NCBI GenBank assembly: GCA_937864895.1
Contig: CALMDF010000105.1
Span: 1 to 11,348, forward strand
Reading direction: 5' to 3'
DNA: 11,348 bases
From: an uncultured Holophagales bacterium
GTDB taxonomy: Bacteria; Acidobacteriota; Thermoanaerobaculia; UBA5066
Shown: in pieces, positions 38-2,370 of the stretch
How the letters are laid out: the number at the start of each line of letters is the position of its first letter
Numbering within the stretch: the stretch's first letter is position 1
Position numbers and translations under genes: made by a program
Notes under the pieces: generated by a model
Told to the model about the DNA's origin: nothing
Database searches by the model: none
What the model saw: the letters and a program-made list of their open reading frames with translations, nothing else

Positions 38-96
38 GGGGTCAGGCGTGAAATCGTGTATTGTTGAAAACAATACACGATTGCACGCCTGACCAC
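38..96 (+). repeat. REP-like palindrome, copy 1 (intergenic, 3' side of capA)
   Basis: A long inverted repeat: positions 40-65 pair with 69-94 around a GAA loop (66-68), 26 positions with a single mismatch (A51 opposite G83). The outer core is GGGGTCAGGCGTG and the inner part is AT-rich (AATCGTGTATTGTT). The same sequence recurs in opposite orientation at 1436-1504. Such elements are typical of REP/BIME sequences mobilised by REP-associated Y1 transposases (RAYT); no RAYT gene is in the window, so that link is inference. Lying just past the capA stop, its transcript would form a very stable stem, but no T-run follows on either side, so 3'-end protection is more likely than classical intrinsic termination. 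Confidence 0.8.
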
Positions 97-123: not shown

Positions 124-1455
124 TCAGGGCGACGGAGCCGCCAGCTCCACCTCGCCGTACCAGCCCTTCCCGGCGATCTTCGTGCCGTAAGGCGTCGAGA
201 GTTTCTGCAGGAGCTCGACGATCTGCTGCGCGCGTTTCGTCGAGGCGAGCCGCGGCACGCCGTAGAGCGGCCCCTCGTCGTCGATCGTGACGGGGATCAA
301 CTCGATCCTCCGGAGCTTCCCGTCGCGGTACGTCATCCGCGCGACGACACTCTCCATCACCTCGCGGGGGTCGCGCCGGTCCCAGACGGAGACGTTCGTG
401 GGACGGGGCATCTCGGAGTCGCGCTGGTGGGGGAGGTCCGTGGGAATGACTTTCGGCGTCCGGTACTGGTAGATGAAGTTGCTGAGGCTGTAGAAGATCG
501 GCCGGCCGCCGCGGATCTCGATGCCCCGCAGGACATGCGGCCCGCTTCCCAGCACGGCGTCCGCCCCGGCGTCGATCGCCCTGCGGAAGGGGATCTCCTC
601 GTTCGGGGGCGTCCTGTCCTGGATGCCGTAGGCCCGCGAGTGGCTCACGTCGTGGACGTGGAGCGACACCATCACGCTTCCGTTTCGCCGCTTCGCGAGG
701 AGGATGTCCTCCTCCATCGCCTTCACGTCCCGCTCCTGAGGCCCCTCGACCGACTCGACCTTTCCGTCCTCCCGCGCGACGAGGACCGTCGCCGGGTCGA
801 TCGTCGCGACGCACGGCCCATCCGGGTCCGTACACCGGTCGCGGTCGGTCCAGTAGCGCATGTAGGAGAGGAGGGCCAGCCGCTCCTTCTGTCCCTGCAC
901 CCTCTTCGAGCCGGGCTGGTGCGCCTCGGCGAGCGTACGGCCCGCCCCGGCGTGCGCGATCCCGGAGAGGTCGAGCGCCCGAAGGCACTCCTTCAGCCCC
1001 TCGGGGCCGAAGTCGAGGGCGTGGTTGTTCGCCATGCTCACGAGGTTGATTCCGATCGCGGCGACCTCCCAGGCGAAATCGCGCGGGGCCCTGAAGTTGT
1101 AGAAGACCTTCTGGAGCTCGGGCCGCTCGTTGATCGAGAACTCGAGATTCCCGATCGCGACGTCCGACTCCTGGAGGATCCGGAGAAGGTTCTTCCGCTC
1201 CGGCTGTTCGAGGTGGCTGATCCGCTCGTTGAAGATCATGTCTCCGACGGCGGTGACGACGACGTCCCCCGGCTCCTCGCGAAGGAGCGCCGAGACGCGC
1301 GCGTCCCAGTCGACCTTCTCCGGCGCCTCGGCGGGCCGGATCTGGCGTTCGTAGACCGACCGCCCCTGGTCCCACCGGGGAGCCTCCGACGAGGCGTTCC
1401 CCGCGATACCGAGTCCGGCCAGGAGAACCAACGCCGGGGTCAGGCGTGCAATCAT
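124..1455 (-). CDS. capA-like: CapA-family (PGA_cap) metallophosphatase-like secreted protein
   Basis: 443 residues. An N-terminal signal-like segment (MIARLTPALVLLAGLGIAG, 1-19) leads into a CapA domain of the calcineurin-like phosphoesterase superfamily, associated with poly-gamma-glutamate capsule synthesis or export. Visible motifs: TAVGDMIF (68-75, GD metal site), GNLEFSI (102-108), MANNHALDFG (141-150), SLHVHD (264-269), GSGPHVLRGIE (303-313) and FYSLSNFIY (321-329). These match the family order GD, NLE, ANNH, LHxH, GPHV, NF; SLHVHD replaces the usual HWG-type motif. The ATG at 1455 was chosen because GGGAAGAG lies 7 bases upstream and the signal peptide follows at once; a GTG at 1494 has no such support. 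The start lies inside a REP-like repeat, so residues 1-7 (MIARLTP) are repeat-encoded. The gene follows the cyanophycinase-like gene on the same strand, probably co-transcribed. Family is clear; substrate is unknown. Confidence 0.88.
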   Translation of the reverse strand: MIARLTPALVLLAGLGIAGNASSEAPRWDQGRSVYERQIRPAEAPEKVDWDARVSALLREEPGDVVVTAVGDMIFNERISHLEQPERKNLLRILQESDVAIGNLEFSINERPELQKVFYNFRAPRDFAWEVAAIGINLVSMANNHALDFGPEGLKECLRALDLSGIAHAGAGRTLAEAHQPGSKRVQGQKERLALLSYMRYWTDRDRCTDPDGPCVATIDPATVLVAREDGKVESVEGPQERDVKAMEEDILLAKRRNGSVMVSLHVHDVSHSRAYGIQDRTPPNEEIPFRRAIDAGADAVLGSGPHVLRGIEIRGGRPIFYSLSNFIYQYRTPKVIPTDLPHQRDSEMPRPTNVSVWDRRDPREVMESVVARMTYRDGKLRRIELIPVTIDDEGPLYGVPRLASTKRAQQIVELLQKLSTPYGTKIAGKGWYGEVELAAPSP

Positions 1456-1504
1456 GTATTGTCTCTTCCCTTTTCTAATAATACACGATTTCACGCCTGA
1501 CCCC
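1436..1504 (-). repeat. REP-like palindrome, copy 2, overlapping the capA start
   Basis: An inverted repeat with arms 1436-1460 and 1480-1504 around a 19-base loop (1461-1479). Read on the minus strand, its first 25 bases are identical to 38-62 of copy 1, and its last 25 differ from 72-96 of copy 1 at two positions. The loop is 10 bases longer than the matching segment of copy 1. The same A-G mismatch occurs at the same stem position in both copies, and the mismatch defines an orientation: copy 2 is inverted relative to copy 1, so the two point towards each other across capA. Confidence 0.8.
1453..1504 (-). promoter_or_regulatory. capA translation-initiation hairpin (SD in loop, ATG in stem)
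   Basis: In the minus-strand transcript the loop contains AAAAGGGAAGAGAC, with GGGAAGAG (1470-1463) placed 7 bases before the ATG (1455-1453). The ATG sits in the 3' arm and pairs fully with the 5' arm: the position changed relative to copy 1 forms a G-U wobble, leaving one A-G mismatch in 25 pairs. Translation of capA should therefore need the stem to be opened, for example by ribosomes finishing the upstream gene, whose stop (1512-1510) lies just before the hairpin. The pairing is seen in the sequence; the regulatory effect is inferred. Confidence 0.5.
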
Positions 1505-1509
1505 GGCTC

Positions 1510-2370
1510 TCAGCGGCGGGTGCGAAGGTCGTAGGTTTCGCCGGGGAGGAGGAGGTGGAGGCGGAGGTCGCGGACGCCGAGGAGGTCCTGGCCGGTGTCG
1601 CGGGGATGGCGGGAGAGGCGGGAGCCCTTTGCGTCGAAGACCATGACGCCGCTCCGGCCGAGGACCTGGAGGGTGCCGTCGGGGCGGACCCAGATTGCGG
1701 TCTCCTCGTCGACGCCCACCCCGAGGAGGGCGGGGTTCTCGAGGACGACCGAGAGGAGGCGGTTCTGCCGCTGGCGCTTGATGAAGTGCTGGTCGACGAC
1801 GACGTCGGGAGGGAGGAAGCCGAGGCCGGCCCAGAGCTCGACGCTGCGGGTGGCGACCTGCGTGAAGACCCCCTCGCCGGTGATCATCCGGTCGCTCTGG
1901 CAGGCCGTGCCGGCGGAGGTCCCGCCGACCACGGCGCCGCTCGCGAAGGCGGCCACGATCGCGTCGCCGACGGGGGTGCCGAGGAGGGCGTTCGTGATCC
2001 GGATCTGGTCCCCGCCGCCGAAGAAGATGCCGCGGGCGTTCCGCGCGAGCACGGCCCAGTCGGCGCGGCCGGCGTCGGCCCTGCTGCGGATGCGGAGGGA
2101 GACGGCGTTCGTGCAGCCGTGCTCTTCGCGGAAGAGCTTCTCGTAGTAGTCCGCGGTGTCGGGCTCGGAGGAAGCCGTCGGGATGGCGACGATCGGGGCG
2201 TCCCTGCCGCCCGCCAGCTCGACGAACTTCGCCATGACCTCGGGCGGCTTGTCACCTCCGCCGATGAGGACGAGGTGCCCCCTCGCGGGCGCGTCGCCCG
2301 CGAGGGCGGCGGCGGAGAGGGCGGCGAGCAGGGCGATCGACAGCAGGGGGAGGAGGCGGGAGCGTGTCAT
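1510..2370 (-). CDS. Secreted cyanophycinase-like serine peptidase (family S51)
   Basis: 286 residues, close to cyanophycinase CphB length plus a signal peptide. The N-terminus (LLPLLSIALLAALSAAALAG, 6-25) is a clear signal sequence, so the enzyme should act outside the cytoplasm. Family S51 hydrolyses peptide-like bonds; cyanophycinases cleave the arginine-substituted polyaspartate cyanophycin to beta-Asp-Arg. Visible signature: LVLIGGGD (33-40), FFGGGDQ (116-122), nucleophile motif GGTSAG with Ser152, DQHF with His195, and GVGVDEETA (217-225) with Glu222. The Ser-His-Glu spacing resembles CphB's triad. The ATG at 2370 has GAGGGA about 5 bases upstream. It lies between the terminator of the receptor gene and capA and is likely the first gene of a two-gene unit. 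The true substrate may be another iso- or beta-linked peptide rather than cyanophycin. Confidence 0.88.
   Translation of the reverse strand: MTRSRLLPLLSIALLAALSAAALAGDAPARGHLVLIGGGDKPPEVMAKFVELAGGRDAPIVAIPTASSEPDTADYYEKLFREEHGCTNAVSLRIRSRADAGRADWAVLARNARGIFFGGGDQIRITNALLGTPVGDAIVAAFASGAVVGGTSAGTACQSDRMITGEGVFTQVATRSVELWAGLGFLPPDVVVDQHFIKRQRQNRLLSVVLENPALLGVGVDEETAIWVRPDGTLQVLGRSGVMVFDAKGSRLSRHPRDTGQDLLGVRDLRLHLLLPGETYDLRTRR

Follow-up and report, generated by a model that had tools for sequence, protein, structure and literature searches.

A REPIN-like repeat doublet as the predicted translation start of capA in a genus of Thermoanaerobaculia

In an uncultured Holophagales bacterium and the other genomes of its genus, a mobile-type palindromic repeat has very probably been exapted as the translation start of capA, as predicted from the sequence. 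We analysed a window of 11,348 nucleotides (the whole stretch of DNA, contig C105 of its source genome) together with the rest of that genome, G000 (3.1 Mb, 565 contigs, 75% complete), and the three further genomes of the genus, G001 to G003. The closest named records of the window's capA are metagenome-assembled Acidobacteriota or Thermoanaerobaculia.

In the reading that we favour, a doublet of the RAYT/TIRYT type would have come, in this genus, to separate capA from an S51-peptidase gene. At the outset the junction would have held a GTG overlapping the peptidase stop codon, as in the closest repeat-free relatives. The loop of the capA copy would then have become about 10 nt longer and have gained a purine stretch fit for a Shine-Dalgarno sequence, and the ACG of the distal arm would have become ATG. 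The distal arm would now encode roughly seven N-terminal residues, among them the positive charge of a signal-peptide n-region, and ribosomes would start at the arm ATG; the repeat would have come first and its change to a start afterwards.

The doublet at the peptidase-capA junction

The capA-like gene (124..1455, minus strand) carries PF09587 (PGA_cap; Pfam E 1.2e-48), with the database names CapA and poly-gamma-glutamate synthesis protein. Upstream of it lies a Peptidase_S51 gene (1510..2370, minus strand; PF03575, Pfam E 7.9e-20), whose stop stands 57 nt before the capA ATG. At the junction, sequence, hairpin and family census point to a 69-nt inverted-repeat doublet (1436..1504, minus strand; REPIN-like, TIRYT type), which reaches from the gap between both genes into the capA coding region. 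A sister copy of the ordinary doublet type (38..96, plus strand), identified by sequence and hairpin, is found 27-29 nt past the capA stop codon.

An earlier note on this DNA had compared the two copies base by base, and direct reading of the sequence agrees with it throughout. The 25 leading bases are identical, and in the capA copy they form the proximal (left) arm GGGGTCAGGCGTGAAATCGTGTATT (1480..1504, minus strand), which was also aligned with G001 to G003. The capA copy is longer by 10 nt and contains GGGAAGAG, and CAATACACG of the sister copy has become CAATACATG. Its lengthened loop holds the purine stretch AAGGGAAGAG (1463..1472, minus strand), a candidate Shine-Dalgarno sequence. The predicted capA start codon is an ATG (1453..1455, minus strand) where ordinary copies have ACG. 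By translation, it opens the codons MIARLTP, drawn from the distal (right) arm (1435..1455, minus strand) and forming a putative signal-peptide n-region, in the same frame as the PF09587 protein, as had been claimed.

The sister copy folds into an almost perfect hairpin whose loop is 3 nt long (-40.2 kcal/mol, z -11.8 against shuffles), and the capA copy also forms a single hairpin (-38.8 kcal/mol, z -9.6). A chance palindrome is ruled out by these z scores, by the 15 sites in the genome itself and by the zero matches to the reversed pattern. An assembly artefact is unlikely, given the identical start in four separate assemblies. A known RNA family was rejected too: a search gave eight matches at E up to 1 and none at the gathering score, mostly microRNA models on hairpins.

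Both window copies read GTGAAAT in the left arm and GTGCAAT in the right one. Among the full doublets of G000, 11 of 14 arms have GCAAT, and the two GAAAT arms are those of the window copies; the two copies may share an origin or conversion. In this genome capA has one copy on either side, and on the capA contigs of G001 to G003 the start-side copy stands alone among the arms listed.

The repeat family and its transposase

At the genome level, G000 contains 15 distinct element sites, full and partial. Four of them are no more than 90 nt away from the end of their contig (C105, C83, C126, and C279), as expected if repeats break the assembly, and copies may therefore be missing from G000. An arm pattern that accepted any base in the middle of ACG/ATG and tolerated one mismatch matched 18, 47, 48, and 39 arms in G000 to G003 (152 in total) and one place (in G006) in ten other genomes of the taxonomic family; the reversed pattern, used as a control search, had no matches. 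With a longer pattern, 4 of 148 genomes of the class matched, exactly G000 to G003.

The earlier note had asked whether ACG and a short loop are the norm, and the census shows that they are. Among the 149 arms listed of the 152 matched, 143 have ACG, four ATG, one GCG and one TCG; the remaining three arms belong to G000, where reading of all 15 sites showed ATG at capA alone. The four ATG arms come one from each genome of the genus, and every one is at the start of capA. Full doublets numbered 55 (65 pattern matches minus 10 removed by a shape filter), fewer than the whole family since 20 regions were taken from each of G001 to G003; a further 174 'half' matches to a loose pattern, a large share of which arose by chance, were left uncounted. 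The 110 arms of the 55 full doublets comprise 104 ACG, four ATG, one ACC and one TCG. Fifty-one doublets are 58-59 bp long and form 24-28 base pairs each, an inverted doublet forming a hairpin and repeated in the genome, and the four capA copies measure 68, 68, 68, and 69 bp. ATG together with 68-69 bp is thus confined to the capA copies among the 55. In an alignment of these four, CAATACATG or TAATACATG is conserved and the loop variable, and the purine stretch (AAGGGAA, AAGAGGA, GAAAGGA or AGAAGGA) occupies shared columns.

G001, G002, and G003 share a syntenic locus at which a Y1_Tnp gene has a left arm on one side and a right arm on the other; these are three of the eight Y1_Tnp places found across the four genomes. 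Such arms are absent from the other five, including the sole one in G000, apart from a loose one-sided match at L165. The DnaA-type HTH domain PF08299 was above cut-off in both flanked proteins scanned (G001 and G003), and the domain scan of the G000 Y1_Tnp protein did not find it. The GGGGTCAG end fits the TIR motif GGGGWSAS; GGTGCCAG, which is the commoner end in G001 to G003 and borders the transposase itself, does not fit it. There is no constant GTAG/CGTC foot tag: GTAG, CTAC, CGTC or GACG occurs anywhere in the doublet plus 6-nt flanks in 12 of 55 doublets.

TIRYT elements, described in part of PMC3733652, consist of a Y1 transposase gene with flanking inverted repeats, are dispersed as dimers too, and occur in Acidobacteria. 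The present family resembles these TIRYT/TIRtron repeats in its flanked Y1 gene, its dispersed dimers and the fit of GGGGTCAG. It differs in its commoner, off-motif end, and in the predicted use as a translation start, which goes unmentioned in the accessible portions of PMC3733652 and PMC6006769. The DnaA-type HTH of the two scanned flanked proteins is a likeness to TnpA-REP subclass 2.1 as outlined in sections of PMC6006769, a subclass to which the TIRYT repeats probably correspond. With the REPIN, as far as PMC3116915 describes it in the text available, it shares the inverted doublet, short spacer, hairpin, RAYT association and scattered single copies; it departs from it in the missing constant GTAG foot and in one copy altered into a start. 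RAYTs are single-copy, vertically inherited genes according to parts of PMC8049555, which suits the transposase locus shared by G001 to G003. Altogether, the element seems to be REPIN-like and of the TIRYT kind, with putative mobilisation by a RAYT/TIRYT-type transposase.

At the transposase locus (contigs C364 of G001, C266 of G002, and C288 of G003), the gene starts a few nucleotides past the left arm GTGTATTGTT, followed by GAGGTATG, GTGGCATG or GAGGCATG. The transposase's own initiation region thus also holds a left arm. A derivation of the capA ribosome site from this gene start is not supported, as the capA loops bear no resemblance to these three sequences.

The ends of the doublets show a further regularity. 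In 32 of 55 doublets the terminal hexamer occurs again 8-30 nt outward, often with the intervening host flank repeated (e.g., L105, L113, L123, and L159). At a spacing of 10-20 nt this holds for 36 of 110 element edges, all of them at 13-18 nt, against 8/108, 3/109, and 7/110 in shifted controls. The pattern resembles a tandem duplication that takes in the repeat end and roughly 9 nt of the host sequence beside it. In G001 and G002 the unit downstream of the capA ATG measures 15 nt, and is therefore in frame; units of 13, 14, 16, 17, and 18 nt also occur, at other copies. Since 15 nt is also the commonest unit (13 of 36, G001 and G002 included), this lends weak support to translation through the arm. 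Among the arm-started proteins considered below, 8 of 24 (three near-identical) repeat [TA]P four or five residues further.

capA in relatives and the history of the start

Outside the genus, the nearest capA genes are those of G007 and G008, two genomes with no copy of the repeat family. In both, the S51 stop overlaps a candidate capA GTG as GTGA, which is the sole candidate start in the stretch scanned. In farther relatives with an S51 neighbour (L089, L090, L093, and L095), capA likely starts at an ATG 19-70 nt past the stop, behind a G-rich ribosome site. The relatives favour the direction from repeat to start that the earlier note had proposed, be it by one event or by several.

At the protein level, 541 homologues passed E 1e-60 and 120 of these were listed. 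Of the listed ones, 24 start with the arm-type motif M[IST][SA]RL[TA], and all 24 are within the best 33. Homologues sharing this start without any repeat would have spoken against the proposal; none was found among G001, G002, and G003, whose DNA was read and which have the repeat in all three cases. Among the best 35 listed homologues, no arm was seen in P0004, P0008, P0010, P0024, P0030, P0031, P0032, P0034, and P0035. On back-translation, the predicted N-terminus of P0003, MYFCRWQKYTISRLARG, fits an ordinary doublet with the ACG kept before capA; P0003 would possibly represent the state before the ATG change, or else a separate insertion. P0012 (VHYSRKREHDM) would fit a left arm followed by a decayed right arm, again by back-translation.

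Whether the start was captured once or several times was addressed with trees of 55 of the 120 listed proteins, with the N-terminus left out, a quick method and no bootstrap. A single origin of all arm-started genes was rejected by the gene tree: one clade for the 24 arm-started and 7 uncertain proteins had a p-AU of 4.65e-8, and the arm-start label needs six changes on the capA tree. It is thus possible, if not the reading we would back, that the junction acquired repeats more than once, through insertion, exchange or conversion by resident copies, with an ATG start each time. The ends of the capA copies point the same way, as they are of the commoner type of their own genome in G000, G001, and G002 (mixed in G003). 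However, the same single clade is no longer rejected when P0021 and P0033 are taken out (p 0.145), and the arm group was defined from N-termini with the tree in view. Moreover, the longer loop and the ATG are placed alike in four species, which suggests one old capture. Repeated gain, repeated loss, gene exchange and conversion may all be compatible with the tree, repeated loss or exchange fitting it as well as several captures do.

More speculatively, and with considerable doubt on our side, the peptidase-capA junction could be a recurrent landing and domestication site. Transposase-borne repeats would there repeatedly supply or overwrite, by conversion, the initiation region of capA while keeping the ATG and the ribosome site in the loop, and the hairpin, with the AUG in its stem, would be a translational gate in place of the former stop-start overlap with the upstream gene.

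Initiation at the arm and comparison with known repeats

Regarding the start itself, the earlier note had combined an ATG with a Shine-Dalgarno sequence. The ATG stands; the Shine-Dalgarno is only fair (AAGGG at -18, with an anti-SD duplex of -5.3 kcal/mol, no stronger than the -5.8 of G007 and the -5.5 of G008, both repeat-free). The best duplexes in G001 to G003 are -9.1, -6.4, and -5.4 kcal/mol, so that a clear excess over these relatives is seen only in G001. In all four mRNAs, folding predicts that the stretch from -15 to -6 relative to the start is largely open (unpaired 0.89, 0.58, 0.65, and 0.70 in G000 to G003) and that the AUG is entirely base-paired (unpaired 0.00). Among the repeat-free starts, that of G007 is predicted paired (0.00) and that of G008 is not (0.65).

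The hairpins around the AUG reach -38.8, -41.5, -40.8, and -27.8 kcal/mol in G000 to G003, the G003 stem having mismatches. The 51 ordinary copies average -49.6 kcal/mol, with a range of -53.5 to -39.4 in which the capA hairpins of G001 and G002 fall. Melting of the stem by a ribosome at the upstream stop was modelled and rejected: the AUG stayed paired with 12 nt past the S51 stop masked. From these predicted folds, in which the loop presents the ribosome site and the stem takes up the AUG, we infer that initiation would be slow or gated: the 30S would dock at the loop and open the stem at its weak upper part. No other step of the proposal is less certain, and the burial of the AUG is at the same time the strongest reason to suppose that capA has its start elsewhere.

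Such a start elsewhere would make the repeat a structured leader only, with capA beginning at the left-arm GTG or at a GTG or TTG past the right arm and the ATG incidental. Many REPs at predicted N-termini may indeed be untranslated, with initiation downstream, as parts of PMC3733652 propose. Alternative codons exist as well, which qualifies the earlier view that no other good start lay downstream: in G000 an in-frame TTG 24 nt past the ATG and a GTG 39 nt ahead of it, a GTG 27 nt past the ATG in G001 and G002, and in-frame GTGs upstream in G001 and G003. Nevertheless, none of them is at the same position in all four genomes. In G002 the codons preceding the ATG are CGG TAA TAC, and the in-frame TAA two codons upstream, between the left-arm GTG and the ATG, excludes a longer N-terminus. 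In G003 there is no ATG, GTG or TTG in frame within 30 codons after the arm ATG. An untranslated leader would also have no need of the change from ACG to ATG, which is seen at capA alone. Thus, we consider the leader-only explanation unlikely.

The doublet could also act mainly on the mRNA, protecting the 3' end of the peptidase message or hindering ribosomes at its stop, with the start as a by-product. Liang et al. 2015 reportedly described REPs acting just after stop codons. The doublet starts 5, 14, and 2 nt past the S51 stop in G000, G001, and G002, and REPs within 15 nt of a stop affect translation according to the available text of PMC12306157. Against this, the G003 doublet lies 25 nt past the stop with its mismatched stem, and the ATG and the long loop are left unexplained. 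We regard it as quite improbable as the main role; it is compatible with initiation at the arm rather than exclusive of it. Finally, the reverse direction, in which the family arose from the capA start region, is most implausible: family and arm-type starts have a genus in common, but ACG and a near-perfect palindrome characterise the ordinary copies, from which the capA copy deviates, and arms also flank the transposase gene at its syntenic locus.

Palindromic repeats within proteins, also at N-termini and in a predicted signal peptide, are described for Rickettsia RPE, ERIC/RU-1, and YPAL/RU-2, and RPE-1-decorated N-termini were reported as expressed (PMC3733652, PMC2229807, and PMC2759123, in the sections accessible). 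As there, a mobile palindrome here would encode part of a host protein, its N-terminus included. Those cases are, as far as these sections go, in-frame fusions or insertions, whereas at capA the initiation region would result from one altered base and a lengthened loop. The capA element sits at a gene boundary and supplies the predicted start, rather than being an in-frame insertion inside an existing coding region. A further difference is that the start is common to all four genomes examined in the genus and that repeat-free relatives are available for comparison. In the accessible parts of the open-licence literature we found no start codon supplied by a REP, a REPIN or any other mobile repeat, and the terms 'start codon' and 'ribosome binding' are absent from the review PMC10969869. 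Repeat-encoded N-termini are therefore already known, and what is new is the genus-wide, predicted translation start built from a repeat doublet.

Bacterial palindromic repeats are mostly viewed as selfish DNA or as mRNA ends. In this genus, a selfish element appears to have been recruited to start translation. Both the before and the after can be read: ordinary copies, repeat-free overlapping starts, a genus with a repeat-built start and, possibly, the unconverted P0003. How mobile DNA gives rise to a translation start thus becomes directly testable, and capA would be an example of a repeat that replaces an operon stop-start overlap and shapes the n-region of a signal peptide.
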